IMG/VR virus record: IMGVR_UViG_3300033143_003455
Span: 1 to 22,246 of that record
Strand: one strand, 5' to 3'
Source: a virus
Length of the DNA: 22,246 bases
Position 1 is the stretch's first letter; each line of letters opens with the position of its first letter. Position numbers and translations under genes: made by a program. This document shows positions 347 to 19,491 of the stretch, piece after piece. Under the pieces are notes generated by a model, which worked only from the letters and a program-made list of their open reading frames with translations, was not told the origin of the DNA and made no database searches.

Positions 347-1338
347 TATAAATACACTAATCCATTACTAAATTCATAAGGTAAGTTATACTTTTTTTCT
401 TTATAATGGTAGTCAACTTTCAATAACTGTTCTACAAGAGCATCTCTCCAGACACTTAAAGTTTTACCAGATACAAGAAAAGTGTAAACTTGATTATACT
501 TATCTATAACTACAAAATTAAATAATATTTTATACTTTTCACATTTTTCATCACAATTAGCTAATACTAATTGTACATAAACAGCTGCTTGCAACCAATA
601 GTTATAGTAATCAATTGAATCACTAAAATCTGCTAGAGTACGGGCTGTTGTTTTAAGATCCACAATTGTTATTATTTTAGCTTCATGATCAATATCATAA
701 TAATCAATGATTCCTTTCAAACCAAACTCAAAATCAGTTAGTTTACACTCTAACCATTTTTCTTTATAAACTTCTAATGTATCTAACTCAAAATCAGTTA
801 CACCTTTATTGAATAATTGCATCACAGATTCTGTATCTTGAATAATTGCTGCCTTCTCTGTACATTTTTGGATAGTTTCATTATCTACTACATCCTTACC
901 ACTAGAACAAATGAACTTATAATACTCCTGATTTTCAGTAGTTTGTATCTTTTCTAATCTTTTAGTATCCTCCTTGAAAGACTGATACAGGTTTTCTTCT
1001 TTAAGTACTGCTAATATAACTGTGTCAAGTTTATTAAGATCATTATTATTACTTTGACCTCCTACATCCCTAACAGATTTAAGAATTTTTTTAATATTAT
1101 CTGATGGGACCTTTCCTGGAACAATATCAAAGAAATCAGTTAATTTCTCAGGTTCAAACATTAGACAGTGAAGTAACTTTCCTTCAATTAAATGTTTATC
1201 TGTTCTGATCTCACGATCTTTAAGTATATAGTCTTTATAAAACAAAGTTGGTGAAAACATCAACTTGTTTATAGAAGAATAACTAAAATTAAATGGTTGT
1301 GCATAAAATGCAGCTTCTTTTTGTTTATCTATTTTCAT
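346..1338 (-). CDS. PD-(D/E)XK exonuclease-like protein (DUF3799 / RecE-type)
   Basis: Predicted RecB/RecE-like nuclease of 330 residues. Visible hallmarks are an N-terminal YSSINKLMFSPTLF segment (20-33), an EGKLLHCLMFEP motif with His57 (52-63), GIIDYY with Asp212 (209-214), and VDLKTT with Asp227 and Lys229 (226-231), which is the D-x-K core. WLQAAVY (248-254) fits the conserved Q-x-x-x-Y helix. In phages such nucleases resect double-stranded ends and work with an annealing protein; a Sak4-like ATPase lies at 8936-9622. The gene follows the 425-nt structured-RNA gap, so it may have its own transcript start. Metal-dependent activity is inferred from the intact D...DxK residues. A Cas4-like role is a less likely alternative. 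Confidence 0.85.
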   Translation of the reverse strand: MKIDKQKEAAFYAQPFNFSYSSINKLMFSPTLFYKDYILKDREIRTDKHLIEGKLLHCLMFEPEKLTDFFDIVPGKVPSDNIKKILKSVRDVGGQSNNNDLNKLDTVILAVLKEENLYQSFKEDTKRLEKIQTTENQEYYKFICSSGKDVVDNETIQKCTEKAAIIQDTESVMQLFNKGVTDFELDTLEVYKEKWLECKLTDFEFGLKGIIDYYDIDHEAKIITIVDLKTTARTLADFSDSIDYYNYWLQAAVYVQLVLANCDEKCEKYKILFNFVVIDKYNQVYTFLVSGKTLSVWRDALVEQLLKVDYHYKEKKYNLPYEFSNGLVYL

Positions 1339-1763: not shown

Positions 1764-2957
1764 TTAAAATGGTAAAGGACTTTCCTCCTTATATTTAATT
1801 TTATTTATATCAGTACTTAATATTTTCTTACTAAATTCATCTCTTAAAATTAAAGAGGATGGATCTATTTTAAATACTGAATTAGCTTTAACACCATACT
1901 GTCCTTCAAATACATTTTTAAATAAACTACATGCAATTGTATTAACAGCAAATTCTGTTAAAGCATTATCTTCTATCAAATGTTTTACAATTTGATCAAA
2001 TGCACCTACATAATGAAAACCATAAGTATTAATATACTTGTTATATTTATTCTTTAATGCTTTAAAATTAACATGATTCCAAGATTTACAATTTTTCAGC
2101 TCATTACTATGAAAATAAAACAAAAGACTTAAAAAAGTTTTTGATTCTTCAGAATTACAATTTGCCATTATTTCTAAACCCATTGTAACATTTTCCTGAT
2201 CACTACTACTAATCATTTTAATTATATTGCTATAATATTCACTATTTAATATCAGTGAATCAGAAGTAGCTGATTTATTTAAATCTGTATCCCAAACTAA
2301 TTTATCTTTATGTTTAAGAATAGAATGATATTTAGGTATTTCAGAGTTTTTAATATACCACATATATCCACTTGAATCAGCTATTTCTAAAGAGGATAAA
2401 TAATCTTTAACTATTTTACCCACATCCTTACTCCAATAGTAGGATGCATTATACCATCTTACTTTATCTTCTGGACCAATATTATTTAGAAAAGTTTCAA
2501 TTTTATCAATTGAACCAGGTGTAAAAACATTTTTATTTATACCTTCTTCAAATTTTTTAAAACTTTCAGCTTGATTTCTAACACATGATTTTCCCCATGT
2601 ATGATCTGTTAAATTATCCATATAATTTAAAGATAAAACAGCTAGAGTAGCTACCTCTATATCTCTAACTACCTTAGCATTATATTTATCACATAGTATT
2701 TTAACTTTATCTCTAGGTAATGTAAGTTTAGGAAATCTATAAATTTTTGCATTTTGTAATAAAGAATCACTATAAGCTATACTAAATAATTCTTTTAGTG
2801 AATGTGATACTTCATGCTCATGATAACCATAACTTTGTTTATTATACATATATAATCCTAAACATTGTAATTCAATACATTCTTCATATAATCTACTATT
2901 GCTTTCTGAATGATGAGGATTAAATTTTAATTCCCATATTCTATTTTTGTATTCCAT
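1764..2957 (-). CDS. Hypothetical protein of the MoxR/VWA cluster
   Basis: 397 residues, mostly alpha-helical in character, cytoplasmic, family not recognised. Residues 246-280 contain the motif IKMISSSDQENVTMGLEIMA followed by a leucine-rich helix. Close versions occur in the proteins at 2941-3984 and 6418-6801, which points to a shared helical domain. The N-terminal third has an acidic/His-rich stretch (SYGYHEHEVSHSLKEL, 42-57). The start overlaps the preceding gene by 17 nt, so it is the last gene of a tight minus-strand run. The structured-RNA gap begins right after its stop. Linkage suggests it is a partner or substrate adaptor for the MoxR/VWA pair; this is inference. Confidence 0.8.
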   Translation of the reverse strand: MEYKNRIWELKFNPHHSESNSRLYEECIELQCLGLYMYNKQSYGYHEHEVSHSLKELFSIAYSDSLLQNAKIYRFPKLTLPRDKVKILCDKYNAKVVRDIEVATLAVLSLNYMDNLTDHTWGKSCVRNQAESFKKFEEGINKNVFTPGSIDKIETFLNNIGPEDKVRWYNASYYWSKDVGKIVKDYLSSLEIADSSGYMWYIKNSEIPKYHSILKHKDKLVWDTDLNKSATSDSLILNSEYYSNIIKMISSSDQENVTMGLEIMANCNSEESKTFLSLLFYFHSNELKNCKSWNHVNFKALKNKYNKYINTYGFHYVGAFDQIVKHLIEDNALTEFAVNTIACSLFKNVFEGQYGVKANSVFKIDPSSLILRDEFSKKILSTDINKIKYKEESPLPF

Positions 2958-3984
2958 TTGATTTATTTTTTATGTATTTTCTATATTCAGGTTTTACTTG
3001 AACCTTAAAAACATATAAGTTCCTATTATCAATTCTTATTTCTCTTCTTACAATAGGTTCTAGATATCTAAAATTAGTAGGATCTAATAATTCATTTTCT
3101 TCTAACCATAAAATCATACTTTCAGCAGATCTATAATATAAACCTGATAGATCTGCTTTTCCACACCAATGTTGTACATCTTTATTTCTATTTAATTTAT
3201 ATATACGTGATTGTGTTCTTTGAGCTAATTCCCATAATAAATGATAATTTTTAGTATAATCTATAGTAGGAAGTAATTTTCCTGCCATTTCTATATTTTC
3301 TTCATTTCCACTATTTAATTGACTTGAAATATCATCTAATAATTGTTGTGTTAATACTTGTTTAGTAGCACTTTGATCAATTACATCATTTACAGACATT
3401 ACTGAAACAGATTCTATTTTAATTCTATGAGCTAAATTAACACACATTCCTGTGAACATATAACCTTCTAATACAGAGTCATATTCTTCATTCCATAAAT
3501 TAAAATTAAATTTATCATCATATATTACAGGATATTTATGCTCATCAAAATATTCACCTATCTTACTATTATTTTTTGCATAAGTTAATGCATCATAATT
3601 CCACATTTTAGCCATCAATCTACTTGTTTGAATAGTATTTCCATCTCTAAGATCTGTACTAAAGTTACTATGTGTTATAACAAGATCACAATCAGTATAA
3701 TCATTTGTCAATACAATACCATGTTCTTTTAAGTTAGCACGTATTCTTGTAATAGAAATAGGAGATTTAGGTAATAAAAAAGCTCTTTTTTCAGTAGTAT
3801 ATACACAATGTGAAGGAGAAAATTGTTCTTTTATTAGAATATATGTTTGTTCAGAATCAGACATAATTATAGTTGCTATATCTCTTCCTCCTTGATTAGA
3901 AGCTACTCCATAACGAGGAGCAGCTTCTAAATTCCAAAATTTTAATGCATCATTATCAAATTCTTGATGTACGGATTTACTCAT
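2941..3984 (-). CDS. Hypothetical protein of the MoxR/VWA cluster
   Basis: 347 residues, no recognised domain, no signal or membrane segment. Residues 224-252 carry LNSGNEENIEMAGKLLPTID and a following Leu-rich helix, the same pattern as in the neighbouring 397-residue and 127-residue proteins. The C-terminal part is strongly basic (KVQVKPEYRKYIKNKSNGIQK, about 327-347). Its ATG overlaps the stop of the MoxR gene by 4 nt (ATGA), so the two are very likely co-translated. The tight linkage suggests a function tied to the ATPase, for example target recognition. Nothing in the sequence identifies an enzyme active site. Confidence 0.8.
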   Translation of the reverse strand: MSKSVHQEFDNDALKFWNLEAAPRYGVASNQGGRDIATIIMSDSEQTYILIKEQFSPSHCVYTTEKRAFLLPKSPISITRIRANLKEHGIVLTNDYTDCDLVITHSNFSTDLRDGNTIQTSRLMAKMWNYDALTYAKNNSKIGEYFDEHKYPVIYDDKFNFNLWNEEYDSVLEGYMFTGMCVNLAHRIKIESVSVMSVNDVIDQSATKQVLTQQLLDDISSQLNSGNEENIEMAGKLLPTIDYTKNYHLLWELAQRTQSRIYKLNRNKDVQHWCGKADLSGLYYRSAESMILWLEENELLDPTNFRYLEPIVRREIRIDNRNLYVFKVQVKPEYRKYIKNKSNGIQK

Positions 3985-5252
3985 TTTACTGTCATTTTAA
4001 TGATTTCAGGATTCATCATAAGTTTATTAAACTTCTGTTTATTTCCATTAAAAATAGTTCTCACAACAAGATATTTCAGATCATTAGTAAAATACTCTTT
4101 TGTACAAAGGGTAATCAATCTTTCTGTAATCTTTTGTGAAACTGTATTGTCTTGAGAATATACTACTGAATAATTAGCTAACCTGGTTGCCAAAGTTGAT
4201 GCAATATCTGCACGATAAGCATCACCTTCACCAATACAGCCTTTTAATTCACCCAAGATATATTGTTCATTATCATGAGTTAATAAATCTTTTGGTGTTA
4301 CTAATTTATCCAGCTTATTATTAATAAATGTAGTGAACATAGATGCAAATGCATCTCCTACAGAACCTTCTCCAATTAATTGGATCATACTCAGTTCCTT
4401 TTCAAAATCTTCAAAACTAGAAATAGAATTAAAGAAAGTTGTAATGGATCTTGCATTTGTTTCTTGAGTAACAAGTTCAGGATGTAATAACATAAAATTA
4501 ATACACCTAGAATCAATTCCAACAGATTCTGCCCATCTTGCCCATACATCTATATCAAACTTTAAATTAGCTGTAATATATCTAGTTTTCTGTGCAGCAT
4601 CAACAGAGTTAACCATGTAATCACCATTATCAGGATTTGAAGTCAAAATTATATGCCAATCTTTTGGAAGAACCCATGAAATATATGTTTGTCTATCAAT
4701 TAATTCCATAACAGCTTGAATAAATCTGATATCAGCCCTATTCCAATCATCTAAAAGAAGGATACCTCCTGCTTTCTTATCAGCAATCCATTCAGGAGCA
4801 CAGTAAGACATTCTATTCTTACCAGTCATTTTATATCCTAGCTTTAAATACTCTTGCACTGCTAATTCATCCACCCACTTACCTACTTTCTTTGTGACAG
4901 TAGGATTTGCATCAGCAAGATCTGCTGAAGCAGAAGCCCTCTGGGCTGCAGTATAGTTAAGTTGATTACTAGTATCTTTAGAAATCTTATGTTCTTTATA
5001 CATTTGAAATTGTCTAGTTGGAAATCCTACTAAATCACCAAGCTCCTCAATTTGAGCCAGATTTAATTTAACAAATGCTAATTTATTTTCTCTAGCAAGA
5101 TCCACAACAGCAGAAGTTTTACCAATACCTGATTCACCTACTACTTCAACAGAGACAGATTGTTTACCTCCCTCTTGAAGAAATCTATTATTTTTAATAA
5201 TATGATTGACAAAATCTTTTAATTCATCAATGTTTAAATTTACTTGTGCCAT
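3981..5252 (-). CDS. MoxR-type AAA+ ATPase
   Basis: 423 residues. Walker A is GESGIGKT (39-46), Walker B is ILLLDDW (164-170) followed by NRAD, and a sensor-1-like TSNPDNGD lies at 204-211. QKTRYI with Arg224 is a possible arginine finger. This arrangement fits the MoxR/dynein-related AAA+ group, whose members remodel target proteins or help metal or cofactor insertion, usually with a VWA-domain partner. The VWA protein is encoded directly upstream (5261-6424) with an 8-nt gap, and an unknown protein follows with an ATGA overlap. The leader is A/T-rich without a Shine-Dalgarno site, as expected for Bacteroidota. The family call is firm; the substrate is unknown. Confidence 0.9.
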   Translation of the reverse strand: MAQVNLNIDELKDFVNHIIKNNRFLQEGGKQSVSVEVVGESGIGKTSAVVDLARENKLAFVKLNLAQIEELGDLVGFPTRQFQMYKEHKISKDTSNQLNYTAAQRASASADLADANPTVTKKVGKWVDELAVQEYLKLGYKMTGKNRMSYCAPEWIADKKAGGILLLDDWNRADIRFIQAVMELIDRQTYISWVLPKDWHIILTSNPDNGDYMVNSVDAAQKTRYITANLKFDIDVWARWAESVGIDSRCINFMLLHPELVTQETNARSITTFFNSISSFEDFEKELSMIQLIGEGSVGDAFASMFTTFINNKLDKLVTPKDLLTHDNEQYILGELKGCIGEGDAYRADIASTLATRLANYSVVYSQDNTVSQKITERLITLCTKEYFTNDLKYLVVRTIFNGNKQKFNKLMMNPEIIKMTVK

Positions 5253-5260
5253 AATTTTAT

Positions 5261-6424
5261 TTAATTTAATTTGATTACTAAACCTGGTAACTCATCATTA
5301 TCAGAAGAACATGAACTCAAACACCATAAGGTATTCTTTGGACAATCATCTGGAGCTGGTGCTTCACCATCTGTACAATATATTAGTGCAGTATATGCAC
5401 GTTTGTTTTTATTAAAATGATCTACTACAGGTTGGAAGCTTGTACCTCCTCTTCCTTTAATAGGCCAATCTTTCTTTGGATTAAACTCTTTTACATCAGC
5501 AAGACTAGCATCACACTGTGCTACAGTGATTTTATGACCAGTTTTATGCATATGACATAATTCATTCCAAAACTCTTTTAATTCACTATTTGATACTGAA
5601 CCAGATGTATCTACACCAACAAGAATATGATTTTTGAACTTAATTTTAAGTCCTGGATTTTCATTATATCTTTTGTTATATTTTCTACGTAACTTTTTTG
5701 TATAAGTAATGGTAGAACTTCCAACAAATCTTCTAAGATATCCTCTCCAATCAAATTTAGGTGGTTCAATGTGTCTTAATCTTTGAATTAAATCTGCAAG
5801 CTCTCCTGGTATAGTACCACGTCTTTTTTCTGTTTGATCTGCAGTTTCTTTAAGTTGATGTTGAACTTGTTTTTGTATTAATTTTTTATCTGCTTCAGTT
5901 AATTCATCAAACTCATCCCATGTTTTATGACAATATTGACTTTCTCCATCCATTTGATTAAGAACATCATTTAATCCAGGACAAGTACCATCTTTACAAG
6001 CTTGGTCTAGTAGATCATAATATACTTTAGTTCCTGCTCTTACAGGAAGTTTAAGATCTGGAAAAGAATCTAGAGTTAAACCACCTTCAGGTAAATATGT
6101 TGAATCTATATATTGATTAATTTCTAGATCTGCAGCTATATTAAATAATTTATGATTTTGAAATATATCTCTTAAAAACAAATGACCAAATGAAACATGT
6201 AAAAGTTCATGTTTTAAAAGACCAATTTGATGTTTATCACAAAGTTTTATAAAGAAATCAGGATTAATAGTAAGTTGTATTCCTATTCCATGTTTACTCA
6301 CCCCTGCAGTAGAAATGTCTGTTCTAAATTTTTTGTTTAATCCTATCATAAATAAACCATAAAAAGGTTCATCTAAGATTAAAGTTTTAGATGCTCTTGA
6401 TAATTTGTTTGTAATATCTACCAT
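5261..6424 (-). CDS. Metallopeptidase-like / VWA-like protein (DUF2201 type)
   Basis: 387 residues with two parts. The N-terminal part has KHELLHVSFGHL with an intact HExxH zinc motif (His72, Glu73, His76) and the downstream FNIAADLEINQYI segment (94-106), both typical of the DUF2201 putative metallopeptidase domain. The C-terminal part has a VWA/MIDAS signature, GVDTSGSVS (270-278), GRGGTSF with the MIDAS Thr (325-330) and a YCTDGE strand (349-354). Such proteins are encoded beside MoxR ATPases and are thought to be their functional partners. It overlaps the preceding small gene by 7 nt and is followed 8 nt later by the MoxR gene. Both the zinc and MIDAS residues are preserved, so neither domain looks degenerate. 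Confidence 0.9.
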   Translation of the reverse strand: MVDITNKLSRASKTLILDEPFYGLFMIGLNKKFRTDISTAGVSKHGIGIQLTINPDFFIKLCDKHQIGLLKHELLHVSFGHLFLRDIFQNHKLFNIAADLEINQYIDSTYLPEGGLTLDSFPDLKLPVRAGTKVYYDLLDQACKDGTCPGLNDVLNQMDGESQYCHKTWDEFDELTEADKKLIQKQVQHQLKETADQTEKRRGTIPGELADLIQRLRHIEPPKFDWRGYLRRFVGSSTITYTKKLRRKYNKRYNENPGLKIKFKNHILVGVDTSGSVSNSELKEFWNELCHMHKTGHKITVAQCDASLADVKEFNPKKDWPIKGRGGTSFQPVVDHFNKNKRAYTALIYCTDGEAPAPDDCPKNTLWCLSSCSSDNDELPGLVIKLN

Positions 6425-15446: not shown

Positions 15447-15746
15447 CTATTGATCATTCATTAAATAATTCTGAAAATTAAATATTCTAACAAGAGAAAT
15501 ATTTTTCAGTTTTATATATTTCTTTATACCTTTTAATGTACCTGTACAAACCATATTATTTTCATTAGTTACAAGAGTATACCCTTTTATCTTTTCCTCA
15601 CCAGGTGACAAGTCATATTTTACTAAATGATAATCAAATTGATTTTTAAATTCTTCATCATCATAATCATTACTCCTATGTTCTGCAGGAAAATCAGCTA
15701 TTCTATCATTAATCATACTTGCAAAAATTTCTTTCATATAACTCAT
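15447..15746 (-). CDS. Hypothetical protein
   Basis: 99 residues, acidic N-terminal half (DYDDEEFKNQFDYHL) and a beta-rich C-terminal half (GYTLVTNENNMVCTGTLKGI, then YIKLKNISLVRIF). The ATG overlaps the helicase TAA by one base (TAATG), indicating coupled translation. It stops with TAG. No family is recognised. The repeated GYTLV / GTLKGI strands might form a small beta sheet. Confidence 0.7.
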   Translation of the reverse strand: MSYMKEIFASMINDRIADFPAEHRSNDYDDEEFKNQFDYHLVKYDLSPGEEKIKGYTLVTNENNMVCTGTLKGIKKYIKLKNISLVRIFNFQNYLMNDQ

Positions 15747-16849
15747 TATACAGGATTTAAAGGGTTAAAATATTTAATCTTGGATTTATCAAAATCTCCT
15801 AAAGCTGTGTTGATCCATTTCATATCTACAGATTCTTTATAGCATAATATATGACATACAGCTGTTTCAGATGGATTCAATCTTAATAATCTTCCAATCC
15901 TTTGAGCAGATTTTCTCTCATTACCATATGCATGCATTATTATTCCTTGTTTAAGTTCAGGAATTGAAACACCTTCATTTAATTGTAATACACATGATAA
16001 TTTATTTATTCTACCATCAGCAAACAATTCTAAGTTTTCTTCAGAATGTTGATTTCCAGAATGATAACTATGTTTACATACTCTATCTGCTTGTTTTTGA
16101 GTATTAGCAAATACAATACATTTACTATTTATATTCTTAAGAAGACCTTTTAAATAGCTTTCCTTAGTTTTGTAATCCATTAAAGCTCTCATTCTCATAA
16201 TAGATGCAAATTGTTTAGCTTTAGCAGTCTGAGCATTTCCTACTCTGGTTGTACAATATTCATAGTCTTTGTATTCTGATGTATACCATGTTTTACCTAT
16301 TTTACTTGTCTTAACTAGTGTATGCAGCTTAGAGAGTTGTAATTCATGAACTACTATCTGATAATTATTAAGAATATTCTGATCTGTAGCATCATCTACA
16401 CTAAATTCATAAATGATAGGACAATATTTATTTACCATTCTAAACTTCTCTGATCCTCTTCTTTTAGGAGGTGTGCCTGTTAAACCTATAATTTTTCCTT
16501 TAAATACAGATAAAAAAGCTTCATGACTATCTAATAAACTATGACATTCATCTAAATAAACAATATCATATGCATCAGGATCTTGTTTATTGATTGATAA
16601 ATAGGTGGTAAATGTTAAATGATCTAATAAAAACTCTGAATCAGTCTTTTTTAATTCATCTAACCATGATTCTTTTACTGTAAGTTTAGGAATAACTACT
16701 AAAGCTGTAATTAAAGGACTATAGTTTTTTTTTAAATGATCTATAGCTACTCTAGTTTTGCCAACTCCCATAGATATACCTAAACCACATCTATCATTTT
16801 CTAATGTTTTTTGCAATGCTTCTGCTTGAACTATTTCTCTATTACTCAT
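15746..16849 (-). CDS. SF2 DNA/RNA helicase (DEAD/DEAH-like)
   Basis: 367 residues from the ATG at 16849, which overlaps the stop of the preceding gene by 8 nt. A frame extension to 16912 would add 21 residues inside that gene and is unlikely. The Q-like lead-in EIVQAEALQKTLENDRCGLG (5-24) is followed by motif I SMGVGKT (26-32), motif II LDECHS (99-104), motif III GLTGTPP (122-128) and motif VI SAQRIGRLLR (314-323). It is a compact SF2 helicase of the type phages use for recombination or fork remodelling (UvsW/RadD-like group by general layout). ATP-dependent activity is supported by all core motifs being intact. Confidence 0.9.
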   Translation of the reverse strand: MSNREIVQAEALQKTLENDRCGLGISMGVGKTRVAIDHLKKNYSPLITALVVIPKLTVKESWLDELKKTDSEFLLDHLTFTTYLSINKQDPDAYDIVYLDECHSLLDSHEAFLSVFKGKIIGLTGTPPKRRGSEKFRMVNKYCPIIYEFSVDDATDQNILNNYQIVVHELQLSKLHTLVKTSKIGKTWYTSEYKDYEYCTTRVGNAQTAKAKQFASIMRMRALMDYKTKESYLKGLLKNINSKCIVFANTQKQADRVCKHSYHSGNQHSEENLELFADGRINKLSCVLQLNEGVSIPELKQGIIMHAYGNERKSAQRIGRLLRLNPSETAVCHILCYKESVDMKWINTALGDFDKSKIKYFNPLNPV

Positions 16850-17030
16850 CTTTATAATTTTTATATGCTTCAATAATATCTTCTCCTTGACCTTTTTTAC
16901 ACTTAGTGCCATTAAAATAATGTTTGGAATCTACCCGTTGGAAACAATTCCATTTAGAGGTAAAATCATTAAAGTGAAATAAAAGATCATAAAGATTTAA
17001 TTTTTGTTGTTTAATAGTGGAGGATTTCAT
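16842..17030 (-). CDS. Small hypothetical protein with YFNG motif
   Basis: 62 residues. NLYDLLFHFNDFTSKWNCFQ (12-31) leads to HYFNGTKCKKG (37-47) and a C-terminal acidic helix. The LYD...W...R...YFNG arrangement resembles small proteins common in Bacteroidota phages, whose function is unknown to me. It starts 5 nt after the HNH gene and ends inside the helicase start (8-nt overlap). Confidence 0.7.
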   Translation of the reverse strand: MKSSTIKQQKLNLYDLLFHFNDFTSKWNCFQRVDSKHYFNGTKCKKGQGEDIIEAYKNYKDE

Positions 17031-17035
17031 TTTAT

Positions 17036-17314
17036 TTAGTTTCTATTGAGTGAATAACCTAATTCAATTGCATCTTCTGGATTAAGTTCTATCCAGTTAT
17101 GACAATTTCTACAGACAGATAACCATGTAGTTTGATCTAAATGATATTTATCTCTGCCTTGTTTATGATGAACTTCTGTTGCTCTGAGTGTACAATTATG
17201 TATTTTAGCATAACACATAGGATTATCAAGTAAGAATTCTTTCCTTTGTTTTGAGTAAGACCGTGTTGTCTTACCCATCTTTTTAGAAACCTTTTTGATG
17301 TAACTTTTTTTCAT
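17036..17314 (-). CDS. HNH-type zinc protein / endonuclease
   Basis: 92 residues. A basic N-terminus (1-25) precedes MCYAKIHNCTLRATEVHHKQ (33-52), then WLSVCRNCHNWIELNP (64-79). Zinc ligands would be Cys34, Cys41, Cys68 and Cys71, and the His49-His50 pair and His72 fit an HNH beta-beta-alpha-metal site. Such small proteins either cut DNA (homing or terminase-linked nicking) or process recombination intermediates in the NinG style. Overlap with the upstream gene is 4 nt (ATGA). It is not inserted in another gene, so homing behaviour is not evident. Confidence 0.8.
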   Translation of the reverse strand: MKKSYIKKVSKKMGKTTRSYSKQRKEFLLDNPMCYAKIHNCTLRATEVHHKQGRDKYHLDQTTWLSVCRNCHNWIELNPEDAIELGYSLNRN

Positions 17315-17829
17315 TTACACTTTAATTGAAAGAAATTATTAGGTAATAATCCTTTACTTATAAAGAAAATAATAACATCTTCATATTTAATCCCAAGATC
17401 TTTTAAAGACATCCTATTTATATAAGATCTATCTGTGTCAGATACATCTACTTTTAGTATGTCTTCAATTAAAGAGCTGCGGGAAAATATACTTAAGACT
17501 TCATTAGCTAATTTATTACATAAAGTCTGTTTCCAAAGATTAAGTTCATCTTGAGCACGTTTCCATACTCTTTTTATTCTTCTTTTCTTATCCCAATGCA
17601 TTTTTTCTACTTCTTCTTTTGAAAATACATTTAATCCGTGCAATACTCTTTTAAATAAAAAGTGTTGATAAGGATTCAATTTTGTATAAACAATTTGTTG
17701 AGTAAGATCCTTAGAAATTATCTGATAATCACTCAGAATTCCTAGGTAAAGATAACGTTTTTCTTGCAAATGATTATTAATATGAGCATGTCTCTGAGTT
17801 AATGTGTTGAGTTGATTTGGAGTAAACAT
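17311..17829 (-). CDS. Hypothetical protein conserved in style with Bacteroidota phages
   Basis: 172 residues. The central part LNPYQHFLFKRVLHGLNVFS (51-70) and KMHWDKKRRIKRVWKRAQ (76-93) is rich in aromatic and basic residues, followed by a helix with LNLWKQTLCNKLANEVL. This suggests an RNA- or DNA-binding helical protein. I recall similar patterns from phage genomes of Bacteroidota but know no function. A 24-nt gap separates it from the phosphatase gene. Confidence 0.75.
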   Translation of the reverse strand: MFTPNQLNTLTQRHAHINNHLQEKRYLYLGILSDYQIISKDLTQQIVYTKLNPYQHFLFKRVLHGLNVFSKEEVEKMHWDKKRRIKRVWKRAQDELNLWKQTLCNKLANEVLSIFSRSSLIEDILKVDVSDTDRSYINRMSLKDLGIKYEDVIIFFISKGLLPNNFFQLKCK

Positions 17830-17853: not shown

Positions 17854-18270
17854 TTAAATAGGTTGTAATACTGATATTCCATCAATGGCTTTAAACCATT
17901 TAAGAACTTCAAGATCATCATCTATAACAAGCTGAACATCATAATGATCTCTAATATTATTCATATAATGTCTGCTTTTAGTTAATAGTGTTTTTTCATA
18001 ACTACCTCCAGACTTCATATGTAATTCATGATAATGAATATTAGATGCATCTAACCATCTCATAGTTACTTCACAACAGCTAAAATCTCTACCTGTTAGG
18101 ATAATAACTACATAATTCTCATAAAGATTCCTTACAAGCTCTGCTATAGGCTCTATAACAGCATCTTCACCTACTCTATGCCAATCATATATACCTCTTG
18201 ATCCAGGTCCTTCTTTCTTTCTTGCTAAAGTATTATCTATATCTACTATTACTGCTTTTTTCTGTGTCAT
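17854..18270 (-). CDS. Polynucleotide 3'-phosphatase (HAD family)
   Basis: 138 residues with the full HAD set: DIDNT (10-14) with nucleophile Asp10 and acid Asp12, LTGRD (58-62), Lys98 as the likely motif III lysine, and IDDDLEV (116-122). The lead YDWHRVGEDAVIEPI (28-42) matches the 3'-phosphatase domain of T4-type polynucleotide kinase, where this segment helps set substrate specificity. It would remove 3' or 2',3'-cyclic phosphates from nucleic-acid ends. The kinase half is a separate gene 2 nt upstream (18273-18719), unlike the single fused protein of T4. Confidence 0.85.
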   Translation of the reverse strand: MTQKKAVIVDIDNTLARKKEGPGSRGIYDWHRVGEDAVIEPIAELVRNLYENYVVIILTGRDFSCCEVTMRWLDASNIHYHELHMKSGGSYEKTLLTKSRHYMNNIRDHYDVQLVIDDDLEVLKWFKAIDGISVLQPI

Positions 18271-18272
18271 AA

Positions 18273-18719
18273 CTATAATTTTATTTCAAATCTTTCTTTC
18301 TGTCTTGTTAATATTTCAGTAGGAACACCATGTTCAGATTCAGAACCATGTCTATTTTCTACTATAATAGAAGTTACTTGATAATTATGTCTATCAGCTA
18401 AATCAAGATAAGGATCCATTTCCCACTCCATTGTGAATGTATTATGTATCACAATAAGAGGTATTTCTTTTTTCATAGCCTTTTTAGTTCTATCCTGACA
18501 ATTTTCATGAGCATCAGATAGTTTAGCAGGATCAAAAAGATACTCTCCCTCTTTAGATGTGAAATAATCATCAGCACAAAAATAATCTAGAATATCAGGA
18601 CTATCTTTATATTTAATAACAGGTCCACCATAAAAGTTATGAGTCATATGATATAAAAGTTCTGCAAATGTAGTTTTGCCTGAGCCACTGGCTCCTCTAA
18701 GTAATATTAAGTTTTTCAT
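18273..18719 (-). CDS. Polynucleotide 5'-kinase-like P-loop protein
   Basis: 148 residues. P-loop GASGSGKTT (9-17), then CADDYF (48-53) with the likely catalytic Asp, IHNTFTMEWEMDPYLDLA (91-108), and a lid-like GVPTEILTRQKERFE (131-145). This fits the AAA_33/T4 Pnk-type kinase domain that transfers phosphate to 5'-OH ends. Together with the 3'-phosphatase gene 2 nt downstream it makes a complete end-healing pair. No RNA ligase is visible in this window. A general small-molecule kinase is possible but less likely given the partner. It lies just downstream of a structured-RNA gap. Confidence 0.8.
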   Translation of the reverse strand: MKNLILLRGASGSGKTTFAELLYHMTHNFYGGPVIKYKDSPDILDYFCADDYFTSKEGEYLFDPAKLSDAHENCQDRTKKAMKKEIPLIVIHNTFTMEWEMDPYLDLADRHNYQVTSIIVENRHGSESEHGVPTEILTRQKERFEIKL

Positions 18720-18894: not shown

Positions 18895-19491
18895 CTATAA
18901 TTCAAAGGTATCTTCTTTCTCTTCAGTTACTTCAGTTACTACACTTTCAACTTCAACTTCTTCATCCTCTTCTTCTACCAATTCTTCTTCTTCAGTACTT
19001 TTAACAATTTCATCAATTGCTTCTTTGCTAATAGTTACTTTCTTTTTATTCTTTGCTGTTTCAGCTATAGAATTTACACCTTGTGCTTCTTTGATCTCAT
19101 CTCTATTAGTATGATCAATCAATTCATCTTGAGTCTCAGTATTTTGAACAAAAAATGTTTTTCTATAAATAGGTTGATCATCTTTTACACATATGACTCC
19201 TGTATCTCCTGCAATTTTCATATCTCTATCAGGATCATCAGAATTAAATGGATCTAACCTTTCAATTACCACAATTTTACCTGGTAATTCAGTTTTATTA
19301 GCAATATCAATTGCTTCAAGATCTTCTACTTTGCCATGTATTAATGTACTTAGCTCAGACCTTTTAACCCATCCATTAGATTTAAAAACTACTCTATCTT
19401 GTGTAATTCTTACATGTCCATATTCTGGATTGTTTTTAGATACACGGATTACGTTGCCTAATTCATCAGGCTGAATATTTACTTTGCTCAT
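18895..19491 (-). CDS. Phage protein with acidic tail, possible ssDNA-binding
   Basis: 198 residues. The first 130 are beta-rich and contain NVIRVSKNNPEYGHVRI (13-29), LIHGKVEDL (50-58), GKIVVIERLDPFN (71-83), DRDMKIAGDTGVICV (88-102) and QPIYRKTFFV (106-115). This pattern recurs in Bacteroidota phage proteins as I recall. The last 35 residues are almost all Glu, Val and Thr and end EDTFEL, like an SSB tail. The SSB-like protein at 8218-8949 ends SDFEL. An ssDNA-binding role is a reasonable guess, not a demonstrated one. The tail contains a GAAGTAACT codon repeat and the gene stops with TAG. Confidence 0.75.
   Translation of the reverse strand: MSKVNIQPDELGNVIRVSKNNPEYGHVRITQDRVVFKSNGWVKRSELSTLIHGKVEDLEAIDIANKTELPGKIVVIERLDPFNSDDPDRDMKIAGDTGVICVKDDQPIYRKTFFVQNTETQDELIDHTNRDEIKEAQGVNSIAETAKNKKKVTISKEAIDEIVKSTEEEELVEEEDEEVEVESVVTEVTEEKEDTFEL

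Follow-up and report, generated by a model that had tools for sequence, protein, structure and literature searches.

A stand-alone kinase gene beside a HAD_PNKP phosphatase gene in a metagenomic virus: a candidate end-healing pair drawn from two families

Results

The gene pair and its insertion site

The window, i.e. the whole stretch of DNA analysed (22,246 nt, positions 1 to 22,246 of IMG/VR virus record IMGVR_UViG_3300033143_003455), carries two small neighbouring genes within a conserved block. The relevant features, with their basis in brackets, are the following.

18895..19491, minus strand: g198, conserved gene of 198 aa, upstream flank of the insertion site (ORF, synteny)
18273..18719, minus strand: stand-alone P-loop kinase gene, 148 aa, phrog_2071 / AAA_33 (ORF, profiles, predicted fold)
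18271..18272, minus strand: 2-nt spacer, TT, between the kinase stop codon TAG and the phosphatase ATG (sequence)
17854..18270, minus strand: stand-alone HAD phosphatase gene, 138 aa, HAD_PNKP (PF25109) / phrog_505 (ORF, profiles, predicted fold)
17311..17829, minus strand: g172, conserved gene of 172 aa, downstream flank of the insertion site (ORF, synteny)
17036..17314, minus strand: HNH endonuclease-like gene of the conserved block, 92 aa (ORF, profile, synteny)
15746..16912, minus strand: helicase gene of the conserved block, 388 aa (ORF, profile, synteny)

Both frames of the pair are intact, the kinase running from 18719 to 18273 and the phosphatase from 18270 to 17854, and the succession of TAG, TT and ATG separates them into two polypeptides rather than one fused Pnk. 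An earlier sequence-only reading had described adjoining but separate kinase and phosphatase genes 2 nt apart, a description upheld by the frames, the profile E-values and the predicted folds. The pair was seen in a single record, a near-identical contig (99.9-100%) stopping at window position 17330, short of the pair; the GC and GC3 contents of both genes resemble those of the neighbouring genes.

The genes g87, g198, g172, HNH and helicase are syntenic across a large group of viral contigs, and the neighbours in the window comprise the helicase, the HNH gene, a DnaB-like helicase, a primase, Sak4, RusA and an exonuclease VIII-like gene. In a survey of 81 loci with both g198 and g172 (79 contigs, 61 distinct g172 genes), the two flanks lie a median of 160 nt apart and never more than 351 nt, the exception being L002/L015 (a single contig) with 556 nt, because a phosphatase gene is inserted there. 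No such insertion occurs in 78 of the 79 other contigs with both flanks; L002 carries the phosphatase alone, and the kinase and phosphatase together occupy this site only in the window. The pair is thus a rare accessory insertion at a single position in a conserved replication block. Among 50 records searched whole (49 related records and L008), HAD_PNKP was found in L002 and L008, and the kinase in L008 only. Either the kinase was inserted between the leader and the phosphatase in the window lineage, or it was lost from L002; no kinase remnant was recognised in the L002 leader, in which blastn found only short words common to the window leader.

Several other features of the block and the window were recorded. 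An ATP-dependent DNA ligase gene lies between the HNH and helicase genes of L002 (11226-12293); it does not occur in the window and is rare in the group. In L044, L048, L051, L052, L055, L056, L058, L062-L067 and L075, the first g198 homologue has a second one a few kb upstream of it, and the helicase gene of L044 (11016-12180) is present in two overlapping frames, as if frameshifted. The near-identical contig extends 3.1 kb to the left of the window, where it adds three complete frames and a fourth that runs on into the window; the added part encodes a 664-aa protein which to us looks like a DNA polymerase, with no NCBIfam match. A stretch of 65 nt (window 420-484) within the exonuclease VIII-like gene (346-1338) is missing from that contig (L193:3495), the frame being of 284 versus 330 aa. 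The gene at 5261-6424, labelled HNH endonuclease via phrog_1314, shows HELLH and DTSGS motifs and adjoins an ATPase gene (3981-5252, phrog_1297), and on these motifs the two are perhaps a MoxR/VWA-type pair.

Relatives of g172 were found neither in annotated phages nor in the genome collection, in a scan for close relatives. The relatives of the helicase are distant (15 listed of 76 at 29.5%), and since 58 of the 76 records are Flavobacterium or Bacteroides phages, a host from the Bacteroidota is probable.

The kinase

The kinase matches AAA_33 with an E-value of 5.4e-11 and phrog_2071 with 7.4e-36, compared to merely 2.4e-5 for phrog_505; as a kinase match, phrog_2071 surpasses every Pnk family by far. 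This family, matched by 603 of 50,697 phage records, occurs in isolated phages as a short stand-alone protein, and we take it to be an N4BP2-like polynucleotide kinase. One phage homologue, that of Hena1, is annotated 'putative NEDD4-binding protein 2 (Polynucleotide kinase)'.

The Walker A motif, the conserved Asp, and the ENRH and HGVP-type motifs are present: G9, G12, G14, K15, D50, F53, N93, T94, E121, N122, R123, H124 and H130 are identical in all 41 aligned rows, and P133 in 38 of them. Arg38 is essential in the T4 kinase. It has no clear counterpart here, the phrog_2071 family having an invariant Phe three positions past the conserved Asp. The AlphaFold2 model of the kinase (pLDDT 86.4) has T4 Pnk as its best solved match (Z 15.7, 2.2 A rmsd, 133 residues, 20% identity), followed by O-phosphoseryl-tRNA kinase (Z 14.2) and Clostridium thermocellum Pnkp (Z 13.7).

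A tree of 78 kinases has a branch of 100/99 support which separates the four fused-Pnk kinases from all others. It retained 40 of the 81 viral loci after thinning, 19 of the 80 genome-collection loci together with L276 and L277, and 12 of the 15 isolates (L103, L110 and L112 being left out); with 133 columns, only four T4-type rows and some long branches (meeting at L012), its details are weak. The window kinase lies inside the phrog_2071 family, joining L148 (99/86) and then L142 (87/92, not starred), both stand-alone kinases whose contigs (62.8 and 74.8 kb, respectively) contain no match to PF09511 or HAD_PNKP. On the evidence of this tree, the kinase has descended separately from the fused-Pnk kinases.

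As a side observation, the kinase also hits the PADLOC model CARF4--CARF_PDDEXK_AAA in the N-terminal region of the model (4-113 of 556) with an E-value of 1.9e-14; a CARF-nuclease defence protein may have such a kinase built in.

The phosphatase

Its profile matches place the phosphatase in HAD_PNKP, the phosphatase family of T4 Pnk. It matches the Pfam profile PF25109 with an E-value of 1.2e-24 (87.6 bits, cut-off 27.6) and phrog_505 'polynucleotide kinase' with 6.6e-30, the matched part being C-terminal (159-289 of 295). The best fold matches of its AlphaFold2 model (pLDDT 95.7) are 5uj0, 4xru and 1ltq, with T4 Pnk at Z 21.9 (1.2 A, 131 residues, 27%) and Pnkp1 tied at 21.7. A predicted likeness in fold, be it of the kinase or of the phosphatase, by itself shows no function.

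The core HAD residues are kept, namely the DxDxT nucleophile motif (D10, D12, T14), K98 of motif III and D117 and D118 of motif IV, as are R25 and R61. In the alignment to 1ltq, T94 takes the position of T4 Pnk Asp254 and D119 that of Arg279, positions held by D in 24 and by R in 23 of 26 aligned rows; the combination of T and D is found only in the window and in L002. Asp254 is reportedly needed for the T4 phosphatase activity. The usual C-terminal GDF-type tail is missing; L177 and L272 likewise have an unusual tail.

The window and L002 phosphatases are 80% identical, with a dS of 0.20 (95% interval 0.11-0.31; 0.26 by YN00), compared to 0.76-1.55 for the four flanking genes, with intervals from 0.47 upward (for g172, 22 of 200 resamplings gave no value). 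Since their dS is lower, the two phosphatase copies share a more recent ancestor than the surrounding genes, as after exchange between lineages. Their dN/dS is 0.59 (0.33-1.03; 0.46 by YN00), which exceeds the values for HNH (0.14), g172 (0.19) and the helicase (0.13), while its interval overlaps that of g198 (0.39, 0.26-0.59).

The phosphatase tree contains 87 rows, of which 57 are fused, 25 stand-alone and 5 from separate pairs; repeat records (L195, L202, L206, L214, L216, L239) and the short match L254 were left out, and its bootstrap had not settled. The window and L002 sit together on a stem of 1.72 changes per column (100/100), and the closest to the window protein are stand-alone phosphatases (94/87, not starred). 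HAD_PNKP phosphatases often stand alone: in 32 loci listed as such, no kinase profile match was found on another frame of the locus. Six of the 32 (L214, L219, L221, L233, L234, L261) are misassigned, having long frames with a P-loop region or an early domain split. The stand-alone calls in the tree rest on a different rule from this list.

Other separate pairs

Four other loci were found to have a kinase gene and a HAD_PNKP gene as separate near neighbours, three of them with a T4-type RNA ligase gene as well. In L177 the RNA ligase (by PF09511), kinase and phosphatase follow one another as overlapping frames. L277 has the kinase, 3 nt, the phosphatase and then an RNA ligase (PF09511) cut by the contig end. 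In L276 the order is phosphatase, kinase, CCA-adding enzyme and the start of an RNA ligase (a contig-end fragment, recognised by our own ligase profiles), so both gene orders occur among separate pairs. In L008 the order is kinase, a 73-aa gene and phosphatase. L276 and L277 are short contigs binned as Pseudomonas and Bifidobacterium and are taken for putative phage or misbinned DNA.

The five pair kinases occupy five places in their tree, with at least five label changes on starred branches, and the five phosphatases three places, with three such changes, counts which cannot separate gains from losses. In the phosphatase tree L276 and L277 stand together (97/92) and are joined by L177 (89/94, on a very long branch). 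To judge from the two trees, the pairing has probably had three or more origins, a single one being unlikely; the likely range is three to five rather than five, because the phosphatase tree groups three of the pairs.

Among 36 kinase-bearing records searched, HAD_PNKP exceeded the cut-off in two, L177 and L172 (a partial match). When the concatenated kinase and phosphatase were used as a query against isolated phages, the best 40 of 2466 records were all single-piece rows, and no separate pair was among them: the annotated feature at the match was a polynucleotide kinase by itself in 37 records, 'polynucleotide kinase | hypothetical protein' in the two JS09 records, and 'hypothetical protein' in Fezzik. 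A separate pair at ordinary identity would be expected above the single-piece rows, so that this is an argument from ranking rather than a full scan.

Two further observations were made in these searches. In a Flavobacteriales MAG, a HAD_PNKP-like frame (L332:2720-3199, E 4e-9) lies on the opposite strand, 1.7 kb from a phrog_2071-family kinase. In L177, a ribonucleotide reductase-like gene (2325-5044) is present in two overlapping frames whose junction, at about 3251, falls inside an intein-like sequence, which by its sequence could be a split or broken intein.

Ligases and other partner genes

The sequence-only reading had seen no ligase, and this was confirmed for the window, where neither PF09511, PF01068, PF01139 nor our own ligase profiles found a match; no tRNA gene was found there either. 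Searches for RNA ligase, DNA ligase and RtcB likewise matched nothing in the near-identical contig, including its 3.1 kb beyond the window. No RNA ligase (PF09414, PF09511) was found in the 50 whole records, nor RtcB (PF01139) in the window and the 49 related records, which may be fragments, though several exceed 100 kb; the 15-kb contig of L008 has no RNA ligase match. A DNA ligase (PF01068) was detected among the 50 records in L002 (E 5.5e-15) and, below the cut-off, in L088. PF09414 scores T4-type RNA ligases poorly (17.4 bits for L113), and the search was repeated with PF09511. In the search of the window's kin the built-in controls of the latter gave no match, but a separate positive control run worked, matching L177, L113, Ceto, L126 and L190 and not the other 19 of 24, including L008. 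Among 20 kinase records whose locus lacks a ligase, two (L126 and L190) carry PF09511 elsewhere, so a ligase outside the window is possible.

In 15 annotated isolate regions, hand-picked from a listing that showed some ligase labels, an RNA ligase is present in 14 and a calcineurin-like phosphoesterase in 14, ParMal1 (L110) having neither. Since the ligase and calcineurin profiles were seeded from 12 and 11 of these same loci, profile matches in them are no independent proof. Among the best 80 of 560 confirmed IMG/VR kinase loci (70 distinct kinase genes), an RNA ligase is found in 55, a calcineurin-like gene in 25, a DNA ligase match in 3, HAD_PNKP in 1 and no profiled gene in 11. In the genome collection, where 80 of 275 kinase loci were examined and 68 of the 80 are titled as Bacteroidota groups, 75 of the 80 are without any profiled partner gene, and the presence of the kinase alone is therefore no proof of repair.

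Discussion

We favour, with a probability of about one half, the reading that the two genes form an end-healing pair, carried as accessory cargo, which phosphorylates 5'-OH ends and removes 3'-phosphates, its likeliest use being RNA repair with a ligase encoded elsewhere. An N4BP2-like stand-alone kinase gene precedes a stand-alone HAD_PNKP phosphatase gene, which the sister phage L002 has alone. The kinase likely acts on 5'-OH ends, which it would phosphorylate, and the phosphatase would clear the terminal 3'-phosphate; breaks with 5'-OH and 3'-phosphate would thereby become ends that a 3'-OH/5'-phosphate ligase can seal. Such a ligase may be encoded in the part of the genome that lies beyond the sequenced fragment, or be supplied by the host. 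The substrate would be RNA cut during infection, the anticodon loops of tRNA being the classic case; we infer it from the associations of relatives, namely the ligases in many of them and the CCA-adding enzyme in L276, by analogy with which tRNA repair is plausible. Against this reading speak the negative searches for an RNA ligase or RtcB in the window, the 3.1 kb beyond it and the 49 related records, the ligase-free contig of L008, the nearest kinases L142 and L148 with neither ligase nor HAD_PNKP, the scarcity of HAD_PNKP among kinase-bearing records, the partnerless kinases of the genome collection, and the altered residues, missing tail and raised dN/dS of the phosphatase. Of the earlier claim of an end-healing pair, the two separate neighbouring genes of that kind stand, but not the notion of a 'split' Pnk, the kinase being from another family. 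The sequence-only reading also proposed that the pair counters host anticodon nucleases; this is at most a candidate role, given that searches found no RNA ligase or RtcB in the window and its 49 related records and no tRNA gene in the window, and that the phosphatase lacks residues kept by most of its family.

It is possible, if rather doubtful, that the two proteins do no joint work on nucleic-acid ends, the phosphatase being repurposed or decaying and the kinase acting on another substrate. The replacement of the usual D and R by T94 and D119, the missing tail, the long and fully supported stem under the window and L002, and a dN/dS interval that reaches 1 all fit such a fate, as do the partnerless kinases of the genome collection and the L002 phosphatase without a kinase. 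Yet D10, D12, T14, K98, D117 and D118 are retained, the confidently predicted fold has the T4 phosphatase as its best match, and the same pairing recurs in four other loci.

Healing of DNA ends, together with a DNA ligase in the replication and recombination block, is unlikely. The neighbouring helicases, primase, HNH, Sak4, RusA and exonuclease VIII-like genes would suit it, and in L002 the ATP-dependent DNA ligase lies three genes downstream of the phosphatase. However, the window has no DNA ligase and L002 no kinase, so that kinase, phosphatase and DNA ligase were not seen together in the group; and among the best 80 kinase loci, RNA ligases outnumber DNA ligase matches by 55 to 3.

Less probable still is the more specific idea that a two-protein Pnk has been built repeatedly (at least three, perhaps five times), the proteins forming a complex that mimics the fused Pnk, with the window phosphatase retuned to another end. 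The retuning would be tied to the loss of the Asp254 and Arg279 equivalents, and the new end may be, e.g., a 2'-phosphate, a 2',3'-cyclic phosphate or else a modified 3' terminus produced by a defence nuclease of the host. The window phosphatase is a HAD_PNKP member of interest for altered end specificity.

That a stop codon or frameshift truly cut a fused T4-type Pnk gene in two, as the term 'split' implied, is very improbable, and this reading was rejected. The gene order is that of fused Pnk, the spacer is just 2 nt, and the two proteins, joined into one query, align over their full length with fused Pnk proteins at about 27% identity; but stand-alone kinases reach 58% identity to the window kinase and are set apart from the four fused-Pnk kinases by the 100/99 branch, and L002 has the phosphatase without a kinase or a recognisable remnant. 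Because of the kinase tree and the phosphatase-only sister phage, the pair does not appear to have been made by cutting a fused Pnk, and such pairs should not be annotated as 'split Pnk'. That the pair is an assembly or gene-calling artefact is scarcely credible: it comes from one 22-kb metagenomic fragment, the near-identical contig ending before it, but the phosphatase lies at the identical place in the independent sister contig L002 and both genes match their neighbours in GC and GC3.

Returning to the favoured reading of an end-healing pair, the closest known systems are T4 Pnk and its fused phage homologues, which share with the window pair both folds, their order and the phosphatase family. 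T4 Pnk is one protein, whereas the window encodes two, with a kinase that belongs to a different branch (20% identity across the fold alignment), a phosphatase that differs in pocket residues and tail, and no RNA ligase found with them. The PNK-type HAD phosphatase is usually fused to a kinase, and end-healing enzymes generally accompany ATP-grasp ligases in jumbo phages, according to the accessible part of PMC7824862. Bacterial Pnkp1-Rnl-Hen1 and C. thermocellum Pnkp combine the activities of a kinase, a phosphatase and a ligase in a single RNA-repair set, with a related kinase fold (Z 12.8 for Pnkp1 and 13.7 for C. thermocellum Pnkp) and, in Pnkp1, a phosphatase match of Z 21.7. In the Pnkp1 type, as described in the accessible text of PMC4411300, kinase and phosphatase reside in one protein, accompanied by ligase and Hen1, whereas those of the window are separate and no ligase was found.

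The sets of T5-like Vibrio phages, Vequintavirus, Justusliebigvirus and Pakpunavirus (V5/Mydo type, as far as the accessible part of PMC9503650 describes them) have the same stand-alone kinase family among small co-oriented genes, with a calcineurin-like phosphatase and a T4-type RNA ligase near; the window has HAD_PNKP instead, and no ligase was found. L177, L276, L277 and L008 have the same two families as separate near neighbours, as in the window, but their kinases branch elsewhere in the kinase tree; L177, L277 and L276 (a fragment) come with a T4-type RNA ligase, unlike the window, and the 73-aa gene between the two in L008 and the reverse order in L276 are further differences. A literature search found no report of a separate N4BP2-like kinase and HAD_PNKP pair, nor do the accessible parts of PMC9503650, PMC7824862 and PMC4411300 contain one. 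The pair suggests that phage end-healing is modular, one kinase family being combined with calcineurin-like or HAD phosphatases and with a nearby ligase or none, and that the T4-like combination has seemingly come about repeatedly without a fusion. The window pair is a modest variation on known phage end-healing gene sets.
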